A stretch of 62,220 bases of DNA from an uncultured Pelagibacteraceae bacterium (GTDB lineage: Bacteria > Pseudomonadota > Alphaproteobacteria > Pelagibacterales > Pelagibacteraceae): positions 1 to 62,220 of the forward strand of contig CACECJ010000005.1 of assembly GCA_902557935.1 (NCBI GenBank). Reading direction: 5' to 3'. Shown in pieces: positions 37,116 through 43,783 of this stretch (the stretch's first letter is position 1; each line of letters begins with the position of its first letter). Under the pieces are notes generated by a model. That model had not been told where the DNA came from. It did not search any database and saw only the letters and a program-made list of their open reading frames with translations. The translations under genes were made by a program, and so were the position numbers.

Positions 37116-38242
37116 TTTTTATAAATTGTACCTAAATAAGAGCTTATAAAACTCTTTCTTTTTACCAAAAATTTCATAAAAAAGTTTCTAATTCCTTGCA
37201 TAATTGAACTAGAAAAATGGAATACAGAAAAATTAATATTAGATCTTCTCTTCACTATCTTTGCTCTTTTTGATCTCTCTTGAAAATAAGCACTCTGAAT
37301 ATTTATTTTATCTTCATCAATTAGATTAAATAATTCATATGCGCTTTCTATCGATTGACCTGCGCCCTGAGCTAATGTTGGTAAAAAACCATTAAAAGCA
37401 TCTCCAATATAAAAAACTTTACTATTTGTAGACGGGAGTATTTGAGGGGTAAAATATAAAGGCCAAGATTTTAAATCACCCTTAAAAACTTTTTCTAAAT
37501 CAGAATTTTGATTAATAACCTTGTTTAACAGTGATTTAATATTATCAGGGTTATATTTTTTCTCTCTTACAATACACACAAGATTTAATTCTTTGCTTTT
37601 ATTAATTGGATAAATAACAATGTGGCAGTTTTTTCCCATCATTAAACTAATTTTTTCCTCATCTATTTTAAGTTCAGATTTTGATTTAAGTATTGTCCTA
37701 ATAGCTACTGCTCTTTTAAATTTTGGCTCATTTTTTTTCTTTTCAAAAAAAGATCTTATGTTCGAAAAAATACCATCGGCTCCTATAACTAAATCAACAA
37801 GATCGTTAGTATTGTCATCAAATTTAATAAGTACCTTCCCTTTGATTTCTGAAACCTCTTTAATTTTTTTTCCAAATCTTAAGTGTTGGGTATAAACATC
37901 ATCTTTCAGAAACTCTATCAATGTTGATCTTTGAAGAGTAGTATATTTAGTCTGTCCTGTATTAAATTGAGTTAAATCTAAGTCACAAATCTTTTTATTT
38001 TGAATACTATAAAAATCAACTCCTCTAGGATGAAAAATTTTTTCATCATTAATATTATCAAACCCAATATGATTAAGAATTTTTATACTATTTGTGGAAA
38101 GTTGAATTCCGTAACCTTCATCGAGTGATAGACTCTCTTGTTTTTCATACAACATAAATTCATGTTCGGAATTTTTCTTAATAAGGTTAGCTAAAGTTAA
38201 GCCTGCTATACCTGCGCCAATAATTGCTAATTTTTTTTTCAT
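37112..38242 (-). CDS. FAD-dependent monooxygenase, UbiH/aromatic hydroxylase-like
   Basis: A 376-residue flavoprotein. The N-terminal FAD loop is IIGAGIAGLTLANLIKKN (residues 6-23), the middle DLVIGADGIFSNIR near 149-162 is the DG motif, and VFYIGDAFNGFLPTLAQGAGQS near 284 is the GD motif with the usual Asp. The nearest general type is single-component aromatic hydroxylases, including ubiquinone-synthesis hydroxylases and salicylate monooxygenases. The substrate cannot be decided. It overlaps mutY by one base and ccrM by 4. Confidence 0.8.
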   Translation of the reverse strand: MKKKLAIIGAGIAGLTLANLIKKNSEHEFMLYEKQESLSLDEGYGIQLSTNSIKILNHIGFDNINDEKIFHPRGVDFYSIQNKKICDLDLTQFNTGQTKYTTLQRSTLIEFLKDDVYTQHLRFGKKIKEVSEIKGKVLIKFDDNTNDLVDLVIGADGIFSNIRSFFEKKKNEPKFKRAVAIRTILKSKSELKIDEEKISLMMGKNCHIVIYPINKSKELNLVCIVREKKYNPDNIKSLLNKVINQNSDLEKVFKGDLKSWPLYFTPQILPSTNSKVFYIGDAFNGFLPTLAQGAGQSIESAYELFNLIDEDKINIQSAYFQERSKRAKIVKRRSNINFSVFHFSSSIMQGIRNFFMKFLVKRKSFISSYLGTIYKN

Positions 38243-39243
38243 TAGAATAAAGTAGACACTTGAAGAAATATTTTTTTTGTAAAACTTGGAATAAGTTCTT
38301 TATTATCTTTAAGGGAATACCAATTAAACTTTTGCGGAATTTTATTTGAAAATTTATAATATAAATTTATATTTAATTTAAGGTTTGAAATTGAATTTTT
38401 ATAGTTTTTAAGAAATATCCAATTTTTATTTTTTAAAGATTTGTTGGTCTCTTTTATCTCTGGCAAGTTGAAATTTTTAAGAAAACTAATTTGTTTATTT
38501 TTAGTCAAAGCTATTTGTTTTTTTTTATTAATATAACAAAAAATATCATAGTTTTTATTTTTTATCATTTTATTTCTAATATTATTAATTTTTTTATCAG
38601 ATTTAAAATACTTACAAGTTTTATTCAAACAACACGTAATACAATTTGGGTCTTTTGGTTTACATTCCAATGCACCAAATTCCATTAAAGCTTCAATAAA
38701 ATCATCATTGTGATTAGTGACAAAAAGTTTTTTTTTATTTTTTTCAATAAATTTGTCGAAATTTATTTTTTTTTCCTCTATGTTCATATTTCTAGAAAAC
38801 ACCCTTTTAACATTCCCATCAACTGCAATTCTAGGTTCGTTATAAATTAACCCTAATAAAGCGTTCGCAGTATAATCCCCAACACCTGGGAGTTTTTTTA
38901 TTTCAGCTATTGATTTAGGTAATCTTGAATTATAATTTTCTACTAAAATTTTAGAACATGCCAAAAGATTTCTTGCTCTTCTATAATATCCAAGACCTTC
39001 CCACATTTTTAAAATTTCTTTCTCATTACTTTTAGATAAAGCTTTGATTGTTTTAAATTTTTTTGTGAATTTGTTAAAATACGGGATAACTGTTTTTACT
39101 TGAGTTTGCTGTAACATAAACTCGCTTAAAAGCCTATAATAGAGCTTTTTTGGTGACTTTTTGCCAACACGCCACGGCAGGTCCCTTTTGCTATTATTAT
39201 ACCAAGCTAAAATTTTTTTTGGTAAGATCGGATTTATATGCAT
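38242..39243 (-). CDS. mutY: A/G-specific adenine glycosylase
   Basis: MutY removes adenine mispaired with 8-oxoguanine. I take the ATG at 39243 (MHINPILPKKILAWYNNSKRDLPWR, 333 residues). Seen are the helix-hairpin-helix LPGVGDYTANALLG, the catalytic Asp in AVDGNVKRVFSR and the Fe-S cysteines C-x6-C-x2-C-x5-C in ECKPKDPNCITCCLNKTC. The C-terminal NUDIX-like part is short and variable. Its start codon forms a palindrome ATGCAT with the start of the DciA-like gene on the other strand. Confidence 0.93.
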   Translation of the reverse strand: MHINPILPKKILAWYNNSKRDLPWRVGKKSPKKLYYRLLSEFMLQQTQVKTVIPYFNKFTKKFKTIKALSKSNEKEILKMWEGLGYYRRARNLLACSKILVENYNSRLPKSIAEIKKLPGVGDYTANALLGLIYNEPRIAVDGNVKRVFSRNMNIEEKKINFDKFIEKNKKKLFVTNHNDDFIEALMEFGALECKPKDPNCITCCLNKTCKYFKSDKKINNIRNKMIKNKNYDIFCYINKKKQIALTKNKQISFLKNFNLPEIKETNKSLKNKNWIFLKNYKNSISNLKLNINLYYKFSNKIPQKFNWYSLKDNKELIPSFTKKIFLQVSTLF

Positions 39244-39720
39244 AACAAAAATAATAAAACGTATACTTACATACAAGGACTTCGTCCATTTGCAAACTCA
39301 ATTCCAAAGACACTAAAAAAATATTTAAGAAAAGGTGGTTATAATTATTCAAATATTGTTGATAATTGGACAAAGATAGTAAGTAAAAAAATTTCTGATG
39401 CATGTTATCCACTTACAGTCAAAATGGAAAAGGATATGAGGGAAGGCACTTTAATTTTAAATGTGGTTCATGGAAAAGAAGTTGATATTGAATATGAAAA
39501 AAATGAGATAATAGATAAAATCAATAGTTTCTTTGGATATAATTGTATCAGCAACGTGAAACTTAAGATTATTCAAAATGAAATAAAAAACCAAAAGAGT
39601 TTTTCACCAAAAATTAAAAATTTAACTAAATTAGAAGAGAAAATAAAAAAGGTTAATAATAATCAATTAAAAGTTTCATTGAAAAATTTTTTGAGAGCTT
39701 GCAATGAGAAAAATAAATAA
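39238..39720 (+). CDS. DciA-like DUF721 protein
   Basis: A 160-residue DUF721 protein. In bacteria without DnaC, DciA loads the DnaB helicase; the region GGYNYSNIVDNWTKIVSKKIS (about residues 32-52) and GTLILNVVHGKEVDIEYEKNEIIDKINSFFG with the KH-like core match this family. Its C-terminal tail is lysine-rich. It is divergent from mutY with zero bases between, and followed by the DsbA-like gene by a 17-base overlap; the mutY/DUF721/dsbA/smc order is familiar in alphaproteobacteria. A helicase-loading role is inferred. Confidence 0.78.
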   Translation: MHNKNNKTYTYIQGLRPFANSIPKTLKKYLRKGGYNYSNIVDNWTKIVSKKISDACYPLTVKMEKDMREGTLILNVVHGKEVDIEYEKNEIIDKINSFFGYNCISNVKLKIIQNEIKNQKSFSPKIKNLTKLEEKIKKVNNNQLKVSLKNFLRACNEKNK

Positions 39721-40297
39721 AATAATTTTTAAACTATTATTGATATTTTTTGTTTTAATTCCTGTTAAAGCAGAAAGTAATATCGTAAGTACGGGTAGCC
39801 CAGAGGCAAAAATAACAGTAAAGGTTTTTTCTTCATTAACTTGTCCTGCTTGTGCTAACTGGCATACAAAAATTTTTTATAAAATGAAAAAGGACTTCAT
39901 CGATAAAGGCTTGGTGAGATTTGAGCACCATCCATTTCCATTAGACTTGGCAGCATTAAATGCTGAAATTATTTTAAGATGTCATGTTGATAATATAAAA
40001 AGATTTAAATTTTTGGCTGCGATATACGAAAATCAGAGAAAATGGGCAGTTGGATCTGATATAAATAAAATTAATGACTCAATAAAAAAAATAGGATCTG
40101 AAATAAACTTTAAAAAAGAAAAAATGGACAGATGTCTAGATAGTGTTAGCGCTCAAGATGAAATATTAAATCTTAGGATTGAAGCTCAAAAAAAATATAA
40201 AATTGAGTCCACTCCAACAATTTTTATTAATGAAAAAAAATATAATGGTAAGACAGACTATAAGCAATTTAAGAAAGCTATAAAAAAATATCTTTAA
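39704..40297 (+). CDS. DsbA-family periplasmic thiol-disulfide oxidoreductase
   Basis: A 197-residue exported thioredoxin-fold protein. The signal peptide is residues 1-24 or so (KLLLIFFVLIPVKAES), followed by the active site SSLTCPACANWH with Cys-Pro-Ala-Cys near residues 45-48. The ending ESTPTIFINEKKYNGKTDYKQF has the cis-proline loop (TPTIFIN). It fits a DsbA-like or Com1-like thiol oxidase. It overlaps the DciA-like gene by 17 bases and lies four bases before smc. Confidence 0.88.
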   Translation: MRKINKIIFKLLLIFFVLIPVKAESNIVSTGSPEAKITVKVFSSLTCPACANWHTKIFYKMKKDFIDKGLVRFEHHPFPLDLAALNAEIILRCHVDNIKRFKFLAAIYENQRKWAVGSDINKINDSIKKIGSEINFKKEKMDRCLDSVSAQDEILNLRIEAQKKYKIESTPTIFINEKKYNGKTDYKQFKKAIKKYL

Positions 40298-40301
40298 AAA
40301 A

Positions 40302-42746
40302 ATGAAATTTAAAAATTTAGAAATGACAGGTTTTAAATCTTTTTCCGAAAAGACAACTGTACTTATTGAGAAAGGTTTGACAGGAGTTGTCGGACCAAAT
40401 GGATGTGGAAAATCAAATATTGTTGAGGCTCTTAGATGGTGTATGGGTGAAAACTCTGCCAAAAGTATGAGAGGTTCTGGAATGGAAGATGTTATATTTT
40501 CAGGCACATCAAATCTCCCCTCCAAAAACATTTCAGAGGTTGTTCTTACTTTAGATAATGTAGAAAAAGATGGTCCGGCACAGTACAAAGAGTTAGATGA
40601 GATTTTCGTAAAAAGAAAAATAGAAAAAGATAAAGGTTCAAAGTATTATATAAATGATAAGGAAGTAAGAGCAAGAGATGTTCAAACTTTCTTTGCAGAT
40701 CTTTCGACTGGAGCACACTCTCCCTCATTAATAAGCCAAGGTAGAATTGGTCAATTGGTAACCGCTAAACCGATTGAGAGAAAATCGATACTTGAGGAAG
40801 CTGCAGGTATTTCGGGTATTCACGCAAGAAGACAAGAAGCTGAATTAAGATTAAATGCTGCTGAGAATAATTTAAAAAGAGCTGATGAACTAAGAAAACA
40901 ACAACAAAAACAACTTGATAATTTAAAAAAACAGGCAGAGGAAGCTTCTCGTTATAAAGAAATCTCAAATAAAATTAAAAAGATTGAAGCTGGATTATAT
41001 TATTTAAAGATACAGGATATTGAAAAAGAGAAAAAACAGATACAAGAAAAATTAAGTGAGTTAGATGATGAAATCAGTGCGATAAATATAGATTATAATC
41101 ATAACAACAATTTACTAGAGGAAGAAAACAAAAAACTTTCGCCCTTAAGAGACAAAAAAATGGAGAGTGTAGCAACTCTTCAAAAATTAAATCTTGATAT
41201 GTCAAATTTGGTAGAGGAAGAAGCAAGAGTAAAGACTTTACAAGATAAGCTCGAAAAATCAATTAAAACTGTAGACTCAGATCTTGAAAGAGAAAAAAGC
41301 ATAACTTTGGACGCAGATTTAAATGAAAAAAGAATTTTAAAAGAGAGGGGAGACTTACTAAACTCTGAAAGTAAATTATTAGACATTGAAACAAATTCTT
41401 TAAAAGAATTGCAAATTTCAAAAGCTGAGCTAAACAGTTTACAAGATCAATTAGACGATATGTTAAACCAGATTGAAATAGATATAGATAATGGATCAAA
41501 ACTATCGAAAACAACTTTTCAAAAATTAAAAAGCTTAGTTAGAAAAATAACCTTGTCACAGGAGTCTTATGCAGAAAAGTTTGGAAAAAATAAATCAATA
41601 GAGAGCGACTCTATAAAAAGAAAAGAAAGAATAAAGAATATAGATGTTGAGTTGGAAAATTGGAGAAATTTAAAAACAAATTCTGAAAAAATGATTTCAG
41701 AATTAAACGAAAGGAAGAATAAAATAAAATCTGAAATCAACGAAAATCAGAAAAACCCTGAAAGAATAGCTACTTCAAAAGGCCAAAATTTACAAAACCT
41801 TGAAAATATAAAAAAAAGAAATGAGGAAATTGAGAATGAATTAATTGAAGCCGAGAAAAAATTTACTGCAATAAATGATAATCTGAGAGAAATTCAACTT
41901 AGATTAACCGATTTAAAAGAAAGCAAAGCTAGAAATGAAGCAACAATTGAGGGAATAGAAAACAGAAAAAAGGATTTAATGTATTCAGTTAAAAATGAAT
42001 TAAATATTGAAAATGAGTCTTCTTTATTACCCCAATCGGATTTAAGCACCGTTGACGAGATGAGTTTTCCAAGTATAGAAGAACAAACTGAAAAAATTGA
42101 AAAAACCAAAAAACAAAGGGAGTCTTTAGGCTCTGTCAACCTCAGAGCCGATGAAGAGACTGAGAAGTATGAGACAGAGATAAAAAAAATGGAAGATGAT
42201 AGATCTGACCTTTATTCAGCAATAGTAAAATTAAAAACAAGTATTAATGAGTTAAACCAAAAAGGAAGGGAACGCTTACTTGATGCATTTACGAAAGTTA
42301 ATAGAAAATTTAACGAGGTTTATACAAAATTATTTAATGGTGGCACTGCTAAAATCGAATTAGTAGACTCGGATGATCCTTTAGAGGCAGGTTTAGAAAT
42401 GTTTGTATCTCCGCCCGGGAAAAGACTTCAATCAATCACGTTGCTTTCAGGAGGAGAGCAAGCTTTAACCGCCTTATCCCTTGTATTTGCAGTTTTCTTG
42501 GTAAATCCCTCTCCAATATGTGTATTGGATGAAGTGGATGCTCCGTTAGATGATGCAAATGTCACAAGATTTTGCGGTTTGTTAGATGATCTTACGAAAA
42601 TAACTAACACTAAATTTATAATTATCACTCACCATGCTCTTACTATGTCAAGAATGGATAGATTGTACGGGGTTACTATGGCTGAGCAAGGAGTTAGCCA
42701 ACTTGTTTCTGTTGACTTGCAGAGAGCTGAAGAATTAGTTGCTTAA
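40302..42746 (+). CDS. smc: Chromosome segregation protein SMC, short form without visible hinge
   Basis: SMC is the condensin-like ATPase. The ABC head is complete: Walker A GPNGCGKSN (31-39), Q-loop region SLISQGRIGQLV near 143-154, signature LSGGEQALTALSL near 715 and Walker B CVLDEVDAPLDD near 740. The 814 residues are about 330 shorter than usual for bacteria (about 1150). Residues about 165-660 are coiled coil, and I see no globular hinge block with its glycine-rich GxxG and GRATFLPL-type motifs in the middle. No stop or frameshift is visible. It lies between dsbA-like and atpI genes. Confidence 0.9.
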   Translation: MKFKNLEMTGFKSFSEKTTVLIEKGLTGVVGPNGCGKSNIVEALRWCMGENSAKSMRGSGMEDVIFSGTSNLPSKNISEVVLTLDNVEKDGPAQYKELDEIFVKRKIEKDKGSKYYINDKEVRARDVQTFFADLSTGAHSPSLISQGRIGQLVTAKPIERKSILEEAAGISGIHARRQEAELRLNAAENNLKRADELRKQQQKQLDNLKKQAEEASRYKEISNKIKKIEAGLYYLKIQDIEKEKKQIQEKLSELDDEISAINIDYNHNNNLLEEENKKLSPLRDKKMESVATLQKLNLDMSNLVEEEARVKTLQDKLEKSIKTVDSDLEREKSITLDADLNEKRILKERGDLLNSESKLLDIETNSLKELQISKAELNSLQDQLDDMLNQIEIDIDNGSKLSKTTFQKLKSLVRKITLSQESYAEKFGKNKSIESDSIKRKERIKNIDVELENWRNLKTNSEKMISELNERKNKIKSEINENQKNPERIATSKGQNLQNLENIKKRNEEIENELIEAEKKFTAINDNLREIQLRLTDLKESKARNEATIEGIENRKKDLMYSVKNELNIENESSLLPQSDLSTVDEMSFPSIEEQTEKIEKTKKQRESLGSVNLRADEETEKYETEIKKMEDDRSDLYSAIVKLKTSINELNQKGRERLLDAFTKVNRKFNEVYTKLFNGGTAKIELVDSDDPLEAGLEMFVSPPGKRLQSITLLSGGEQALTALSLVFAVFLVNPSPICVLDEVDAPLDDANVTRFCGLLDDLTKITNTKFIIITHHALTMSRMDRLYGVTMAEQGVSQLVSVDLQRAEELVA

Positions 42747-42754
42747 TTATTAAA

Positions 42755-43039
42755 ATGACAATTCCCGAAGATTTTAAAACTCGCCTAAAAATTGCAAAAT
42801 CTAAAATTAAAAAAGAATTGGAAAATGATGAAGAAAAACGTGGGTCATTTATGGGCAGTGCCTTTAAGTTAGGGACAGAACTAGTATCTGCGGTCGCAGT
42901 TGGGACAATAATTGGGTTTATTTTAGATAGCTGGTTTGATACTAAACCTTGGTTAATAATAATTTTCTTTTTTTTGGGTGCTGTTGCAGGCATGTTAAAC
43001 GTAATAAAAGCAGCTAACCGAATGCAAAAAAAAGACTAG
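42755..43039 (+). CDS. atpI: AtpI/AtpZ-type ATP synthase accessory protein
   Basis: A 94-residue membrane protein with two helices (about 45-61 and 65-82, the second LIIIFFFLGAVAGMLNV), typical of AtpI/AtpZ-type proteins that help c-ring assembly or Mg2+ supply. The GSAFKLGTELVSAVAVGTIIGFILDSWF segment (named here by its parts) matches the AtpZ/AtpI family. It leads the F0 operon, ten bases before atpB. The precise role in this family is debated. Confidence 0.87.
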   Translation: MTIPEDFKTRLKIAKSKIKKELENDEEKRGSFMGSAFKLGTELVSAVAVGTIIGFILDSWFDTKPWLIIIFFFLGAVAGMLNVIKAANRMQKKD

Positions 43040-43048
43040 AAAGACTAT

Positions 43049-43783
43049 ATGGCAAGTAATCCAATGCAACAATTTACAGTCCACAGAATTGGGCCAGAAA
43101 TTAAAATTGCAGGTATAGATTTATCTTTTACTAATGCAAGTATGTTTATGGTAATAAGCGCTTCAGTAATTCTTTTATTTTTGTTTTTAGGTTCTAAAGA
43201 AAAGAAAATTATACCAAATAAAATACAGTTAATTGCAGAAATTTTTTACTCTTTTGTTGCAAAAATGATTAGTGATACCGCGGGATCTAAAGCAAAACCT
43301 TATTTTCCATTCATATTCAGTTTATTCATGTTCGTTTTATTTTGTAACATGGTGGGGATGTTGCCTTATTCATTTACTGTAACTAGCCATATAATTGTAA
43401 CTCTAATTATGGCTTTATTTATATTTATAGCTGTAACAATTATTGGTTTTATAAAACACGGTTTTAAATATTTAAGTATTTTTGTACCTAGTGGTGTTCC
43501 AGCTGTGCTTTTGCCTTTAATTACCATAATAGAAATTATCTCTTATTTAAGTAGACCAGTAAGTTTATCGGTGAGGTTATTCGCAAATATGATGGCGGGT
43601 CATACCATGTTAAAAGTTTTTGGAGGATTTGTTGTAAGCTTAGGAATATTAGGCGGATGGTTACCGCTTAGTTTTTCAGTGGCATTAACAGGCTTAGAAA
43701 TTCTAGTAGCGTTTTTACAGGCATATGTTTTTGCAATATTAACCTGCATTTATTTAAATGATGCATTAAATTTACACCATTAA
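43049..43783 (+). CDS. atpB: ATP synthase F0 subunit a
   Basis: Subunit a forms the proton path beside the c ring. The 244 residues contain five to six hydrophobic helices, and the essential arginine is in the segment SLSVRLFANMMAGHTML near residues 170-186. FLQAYVFAILTCIYLNDALN ends the protein as in other alphaproteobacteria. It follows atpI by nine bases and precedes atpE by 17. Confidence 0.96.
   Translation: MASNPMQQFTVHRIGPEIKIAGIDLSFTNASMFMVISASVILLFLFLGSKEKKIIPNKIQLIAEIFYSFVAKMISDTAGSKAKPYFPFIFSLFMFVLFCNMVGMLPYSFTVTSHIIVTLIMALFIFIAVTIIGFIKHGFKYLSIFVPSGVPAVLLPLITIIEIISYLSRPVSLSVRLFANMMAGHTMLKVFGGFVVSLGILGGWLPLSFSVALTGLEILVAFLQAYVFAILTCIYLNDALNLHH

Follow-up and report, generated by a model that had tools for sequence, protein, structure and literature searches.

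Dimerisation through the hinge is usually seen as a defining feature of SMC proteins, and what else the hinge does is debated. In Bacillus subtilis, an unrelated zinc hook can stand in for the hinge with normal growth (PMC5344682). A 2025 study presents the hinge as an obstacle-bypass gate that is dispensable for loop extrusion: replacing the elbow-to-hinge segment of Wadjet by nine residues left loop extrusion intact, as read out by plasmid cleavage, and abolished obstacle bypass (PMC12647877). The dimer of this Wadjet core stayed together only with the help of a disulfide, whose reduction abolished activity; the discussion of the same paper adds that B. subtilis Smc with a substituted hinge has defects that are suppressed when the parS sites are cut to one (PMC12647877). 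A cluster of 'hinge-less' SMCs from marine Actinomycetes was also reported in 2025 (PMC12153180).

Here we describe an 814-residue SMC from SAR11 (order Pelagibacterales) in which sequence comparison and structure prediction indicate that the hinge and the distal arms are missing and that the ATPase heads and the head-proximal coiled coil are kept. SAR11 bacteria are among the most abundant marine bacteria, and their hinge-free SMC provides a natural test of hinge function outside engineered mutants, as well as a small SMC for structural work. In the literature searched (mostly open-access journals, no preprints) we found no report of a hinge-free SMC in SAR11, and the available portions of two papers that name Pelagibacter hold nothing on the subject (PMC7203096, PMC2635572). 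As far as these searches show, a hinge-less SMC across SAR11, with its orthology, tip anatomy and parS pattern, is new.

The smc gene, its neighbors and its partners

The window, that is, the whole stretch of 62,220 nucleotides that was analyzed, lies on contig C5 of its genome. The features of interest in the window, and two on another contig of the same genome, are as follows.

38242..39276, - strand: mutY-like neighbor in the conserved smc neighborhood (family match, HhH-GPD), which we take to be mutY by name
39238..39720, + strand: dciA-like neighbor (family match, PF05258)
39704..40297, + strand: DsbA-like thioredoxin neighbor (family match, PF13462 and PF01323)
40302..42746, + strand: smc gene with an ATG start, coding for an 814-residue SMC without hinge domain (ORF call and profile searches)
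40392..40418, + strand: Walker A, GPNGCGKSN, residues 31-39 (motif)
40944..41489, + strand: N-terminal arm helix, residues 215-396 (AlphaFold2 model; residues 302-396 also in the tip-only model)
41490..41507, + strand: six-residue turn at the arm tip, residues 397-402, where relatives have distal arms and hinge (alignment and AlphaFold2)
41508..42002, + strand: C-terminal arm helix, residues 403-567 (AlphaFold2; the tip-only model breaks the helix near residues 485-495)
42444..42461, + strand: ABC signature LSGGEQ, residues 715-720 (motif)
42528..42554, + strand: end of Walker B and D-loop, DEVDAPLDD, residues 743-751 (motif)
42755..43039, + strand: atpI-like neighbor (family match, PF09527), presumably atpI by name
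43049..43783, + strand: atpB neighbor, ATP synthase A chain (family match, PF00119)
Own genome (G000), C1:261436-262080, strand not given: kleisin ScpA match (family search)
Own genome (G000), C1:260895-261359, strand not given: KITE protein ScpB match (family search)

As called, the divergent mutY-like and dciA-like frames share 39 bases (39238-39276), and mutY may begin at an internal ATG.

The original prediction described an intact SMC with both ATPase halves and their motifs, and held that ScpA and ScpB lie outside the window; both statements proved correct. Walker A, LSGGEQ and DEVDAPLDD are complete and are followed by an IITHH motif at residues 774-778, and the protein scores 681.9 bits against the TIGR02168 (SMC_prok_B) equivalog model, whose cut-off is 567.35. 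Among the features by which a bacterial SMC is recognized, it thus has the split ABC ATPase (Walker A, signature, Walker B), and its genome encodes ScpA and ScpB; a central hinge domain was not found in it. It is the single SMC of its own genome, in which two of 13 SMC_N matches exceed the family cut-off and correspond to its two heads. The window belongs to SAR11: in a scan of named genomes, the 80 loci listed out of 176 confirmed all came from Pelagibacteraceae, Pelagibacter or Pelagibacterales records, HIMB058 included, with 71-90% identity.

The ScpA and ScpB matches adjoin each other on contig C1 and are the only such matches in the genome. Across the 41 genomes searched, own genome included, each family was detected in 29 and not in the other 12; in genomes at least 90% complete, each was present in 11 of 14 and missing from three. 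ParB_N was detected in 37 of 38 genomes of the order.

The missing block and the predicted arm tip

The residues that the window SMC lacks relative to a longer orthologue belong to the middle of the protein. The distance from LEEAAG to NLRA is 449 residues, versus 785 in the hinge-bearing alphaproteobacterial orthologue L080, and that from NLRA to LSGGE is 102 in both, which places the whole 336-residue deficit, originally estimated at about 330, in the arm and hinge part. When ten hinge-bearing SMCs from Alphaproteobacteria were aligned with 14 from SAR11, a gap appeared at window residue 400-402, opposite residues ~419-741 of L080.

AlphaFold2, run on the monomer with 50 sequences, predicted helices at residues 215-396 and 403-567 joined by a turn at 397-402, with ten-residue means of pLDDT of 73-92 over residues 221-600, a pTM of 0.33 and poor heads, a large part of which fell below 60 pLDDT. 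When the 220-residue tip was modelled alone (30 sequences), the same hairpin was obtained with a mean pLDDT of 89.1, reaching 91-92 around the turn. In both models the two helices fold back on each other at the end of the arm as a simple antiparallel hairpin. There are 233 residues from LEEAAG to the turn, roughly equal to the mode of 238 residues given for prokaryotic SMC arms in PMC5344682, where length was measured another way, from head to hinge.

Across 14 SAR11 rows, the tip has the lowest mean pairwise identity (26.8%, versus 49.1 and 37.2% for the arms), and it is the most length-variable region of SAR11 SMCs; the reverse is seen in ten hinge-bearing alphaproteobacterial SMCs, with 38.3% for the hinge versus 26.3 and 20.0% for the arms. 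Conserved large hydrophobic residues show no clear excess at the tip (5-7 in tip windows, versus an arm mean of 4.7 with a standard deviation of 1.4). The original prediction called for another dimer contact; with so little conservation and no clear hydrophobic excess at the tip, no substitute dimer domain stands out, and the idea of a conserved dimer patch there was not adopted. It is kept as a rival interpretation that we regard as rather unlikely, in which the hairpin tip would be a minimal dimerisation device, two tips packing as a small helical bundle that closes the ring. This interpretation draws on the closed ring required by the engineered Wadjet core, as presented in PMC12647877, and on the window's genus, in which the regular hydrophobic pattern of the tip runs up to the turn, K400, K403, F406 and L409 are near-invariant, and each of these four, like I395 and I416, occurs in 47-50 of 50 sequences. 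It also draws on genus g6, which has two sizes of SMC, four of ~857 aa (L092, L093, L098, L100) and three of ~799 aa (L094, L095, L099), with 77 and 59 residues before and after the tip helix in the former versus 48 and 29 in the latter. In this comparison of seven sequences with anchors picked by eye, the tip helix is kept and the stalk differs by 29 residues on its N-terminal side and 30 on its C-terminal side; such a balanced change is what is expected of an antiparallel hairpin. Order-wide, the identity values and hydrophobic counts given above weigh against tip dimerisation.

Closure of the ring by a separate protein that bridges the two tips appears improbable. Such a partner would explain how a ring that must be closed can do without its hinge, and the conserved basic residues at the tip in the window's genus could be read in its favor, but tip sequences differ greatly between genera, which argues against one conserved partner, and no separate hinge ORF was found: PF06470 gave no match above its cut-off in any of 118 genomes of the order. 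Ten weak PF06470 matches were seen in these genomes (best E 0.0185), but at the locus of the SMC none fell in a frame of SMC size.

Two other ideas about the tip were abandoned. The basic stretch KRKERIK that follows it was considered as a new DNA-binding site, a proposal weakened by the aligned stretch of hinge-bearing SMCs, which is also charged and is followed by a W kept in eight of ten of them. A sequence search of the PDB with residues 388-435 returned one match at E 0.35, which is chance level.

Searches for a hinge, distribution and origin

The Pfam SMC_hinge profile, a check proposed with the original prediction, gave no match to the window protein at E<=10, residues 350-500 included, and none at E<=0.05 to any member of a diverse set of 22 SAR11 SMCs that includes it; at E<=1 SMC_hinge was not among the matches listed (25 of 30 families). 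This profile is insensitive in the class, with matches at E<=0.01 in 137 of 288 alphaproteobacterial genomes; because it misses about half of the class, the lack of a Pfam match proves little, and it was dropped as sole proof of absence in favor of a class-specific profile that was run alongside controls. Automatic annotation by the same Pfam profile would call many normal alphaproteobacterial SMCs hinge-less.

The class-specific profile was built from ten hinge-bearing alphaproteobacterial SMCs. In profile-profile searches it recovered the hinges of the held-out L084 and L086 at probabilities of 98.3 and 98.9, and at 98.3 that of genome G047, which Pfam SMC_hinge misses, whereas no hinge was found in six SAR11 alignments of the middle region (0.0-0.2) or in the whole window protein (0.1). 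Used as an HMM with a threshold of E<=1e-3, it matched none of the 120 rows from SAR11, some of them representing one genome twice (best E 1.3). Of the SMCs not used to build it, the HMM matched the two alphaproteobacterial ones, L211 (6e-36), which shares its genus with L081 of the training rows, and L212 (5e-45), as well as 10 of 28 from other Pseudomonadota. In the 864-aa family f2, 'GYDD..W' resembles the hinge 'GYE..W' and was considered as a possible hinge remnant, but the profile gave it no support. The claim that no hinge is recognizable is thus borne out by the alignment gap, the hinge profile with its controls and the AlphaFold2 hairpin. We consider it very improbable that a strongly diverged or reduced hinge went unrecognized: the insensitivity of Pfam in alphaproteobacteria and the extra residues at the tip of some SAR11 SMCs (857-891 aa) would allow for one, but the window protein has just a six-residue turn between two predicted long helices, and the hinge profile was negative for all SAR11 sets tested while its controls worked.

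TIGR02168 was searched in the 118 Pelagibacterales genomes, all at least 75% complete, and matched in 116, a few of these matches being merely weak and not to an SMC. Frame lengths were read by hand from among the matches listed. In 91 of the 96 genomes so listed, SMC frames measured 799-891 aa (27 of 799-820, 59 of 852-868 and 5 of 882-891), counting G039 and G341, whose frames reach contig ends; the five shorter frames we infer to be fragments. Outside the order, the full-length SMC frames listed from 288 genomes of the class were ~1100-1240 aa, a few being longer. Judged from these sequences, absence of the hinge is a trait of the order, the sampled relatives all having the short form; none of those seen had the normal length that would have pointed to a sequencing deletion. 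An assembly error or a decaying gene can be dismissed as having next to no chance of being correct, given similar lengths in independent single-cell, metagenome and single-contig genomes (G128 and G329, for example) and conserved heads (mean entropy 0.19-0.45 bits), against which stands one in-frame TAG in the SMC frame of the single-cell genome AG-917-K20 (G021; L013/L149).

The original suggestion that a streamlined cell may run on a simplified condensin is supported, yet a small genome alone does not suffice. We rejected it as sole cause of hinge loss on account of G047 (1.4 Mb, 93% complete), whose 1148-aa SMC has retained its hinge. Elsewhere in the class, the SMC frame at G064:C1:1811635-1816122 has 1523 aa and is perhaps of the long-armed, channel-less hinge type described for Acetobacter in PMC12647877; G268, of the same family as G064, gave no TIGR02168 match.

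A tree of the head regions was computed from 53 rows, four others having been dropped for a missing search motif and no actinobacterial sequences being included; it is a quick search with SH-aLRT as its sole measure of support, and it contains some long alphaproteobacterial branches. All SAR11 SMCs fall in a single clade (SH-aLRT 99), and together with nine other alphaproteobacterial SMCs they split from 27 other Pseudomonadota (100); within this group, SAR11 sits with five of the nine at a support of 86, where the program stars values of at least 95. The gene order mutY-dciA-dsbA-smc-atpI-atpB is complete in all four SAR11 loci tested and in two of five hinge-bearing loci (L215, L216). L214 is complete except for a detectable dciA, and mutY, dsbA and smc were seen in L213 and L217. 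On the strength of the head tree and the gene neighborhood, the window ORF is identified as the orthologous chromosomal SMC of SAR11. With one SAR11 clade, grouped with alphaproteobacterial SMCs and found at a conserved locus, the hinge would most simply have been lost once in this orthologue, before f1 and f2, the two families sampled in the order, parted, and the distal arms appear to have been lost together with it.

parS sites, a proposed core-only condensin and known SMC complexes

Near-consensus parS sites were searched by allowing the consensus no more than one mismatch; the reversed pattern, used as a control, had no match in any of the 22 genomes. Among 11 SAR11 genomes at least 99% complete (G128, G226, G307, G328-G332, G334, G337, G025), ten have one near-consensus parS ~1.45-1.48 kb from ParB_N, which carries one mismatch in G226 and G337; G332 has a second at 1.8 kb. 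Four more one-mismatch sites (G307, G337 and two in G332) are distant and have their mismatch within the central CACGTG. No near-consensus parS was found in the window's own genome, which is 83% complete. Two or three clustered parS were found in seven of ten other alphaproteobacteria, in which parB was not located; two of the remaining controls have one parS, each with one mismatch, and one has none. Nine of the ten control genomes are among those listed with full-length SMC frames, the frame of G157 not being among the matches listed. A core-only SMC predicts few parS, and the single SAR11 site would fit this prediction, in a contrast that sets one clade against others, amounts to one event and is confounded with genome size.

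We consider it fairly probable that the chromosomal SMC of SAR11 has been reduced to its core, a natural core-only condensin produced by one ancestral hinge loss. Together with ScpA and ScpB, it would still work as a ParB/parS-loaded condensin, its dimer being held by ATP-driven head engagement, by the ScpA/ScpB bridge and by contact between the short arms, either along their length or at their tips. Such a complex could extrude or compact DNA without a hinge gate for passing large obstacles, and hinge loss may have been tolerated because loading from essentially one parS would lead to few SMC-SMC collisions. By analogy, the closed ring needed by the engineered core argues for some arm contact in the SAR11 dimer; an open-topped dimer may not be functional, given that reduction of the disulfide abolished Wadjet core activity (PMC12647877). 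A broader proposition, to which we give somewhat less than even credence, is that the SAR11 order has a naturally hinge-free core-only condensin, its hinge lost once, that neither viability nor a working condensin requires the hinge, that single-parS loading is a compensating change which made obstacle bypass by the hinge unnecessary, and that the actinobacterial hinge-less SMCs are an independent, parallel case.

Among known systems, Smc-ScpAB condensin (TIGR02168; B. subtilis, Caulobacter) shares heads, motifs, arm order and the encoded ScpA/ScpB and ParB with the SAR11 SMC, and hinge-bearing alphaproteobacterial SMCs have the same gene neighborhood; it differs by its ~1150 aa with hinge and distal arms, versus 814 aa without either. 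Rad50/SbcC also combines a head with an antiparallel coiled coil and has no globular hinge, but Rad50 models score merely 24-36 bits on the window SMC, far below their cut-offs. A CXXC zinc hook of the Rad50/SbcC type was found in none of 119 SAR11 rows between LEEAAG and the neck, and the only cysteines of the window SMC are at positions 35, 47, 740 and 758. The marine Actinomycetes cluster, compared here by its description in PMC12153180, resembles the SAR11 SMC in its heads and coiled coil, in having neither hinge nor CXXC zinc hook, and in belonging to abundant marine bacteria. Its authors place it in Actinobacteria, whereas the SAR11 SMC groups with Alphaproteobacteria, and their 80% mutual-length rule (PMC12153180) would probably exclude 814-aa proteins. 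The engineered Wadjet ecJET(core), as described in PMC12647877, likewise keeps heads and proximal arms and has a short linker in place of the elbow-to-hinge segment. It is artificial, built on JetC and not on SMC, and held as a dimer by a disulfide, whereas the SAR11 protein is natural and has a predicted six-residue turn at its tip.
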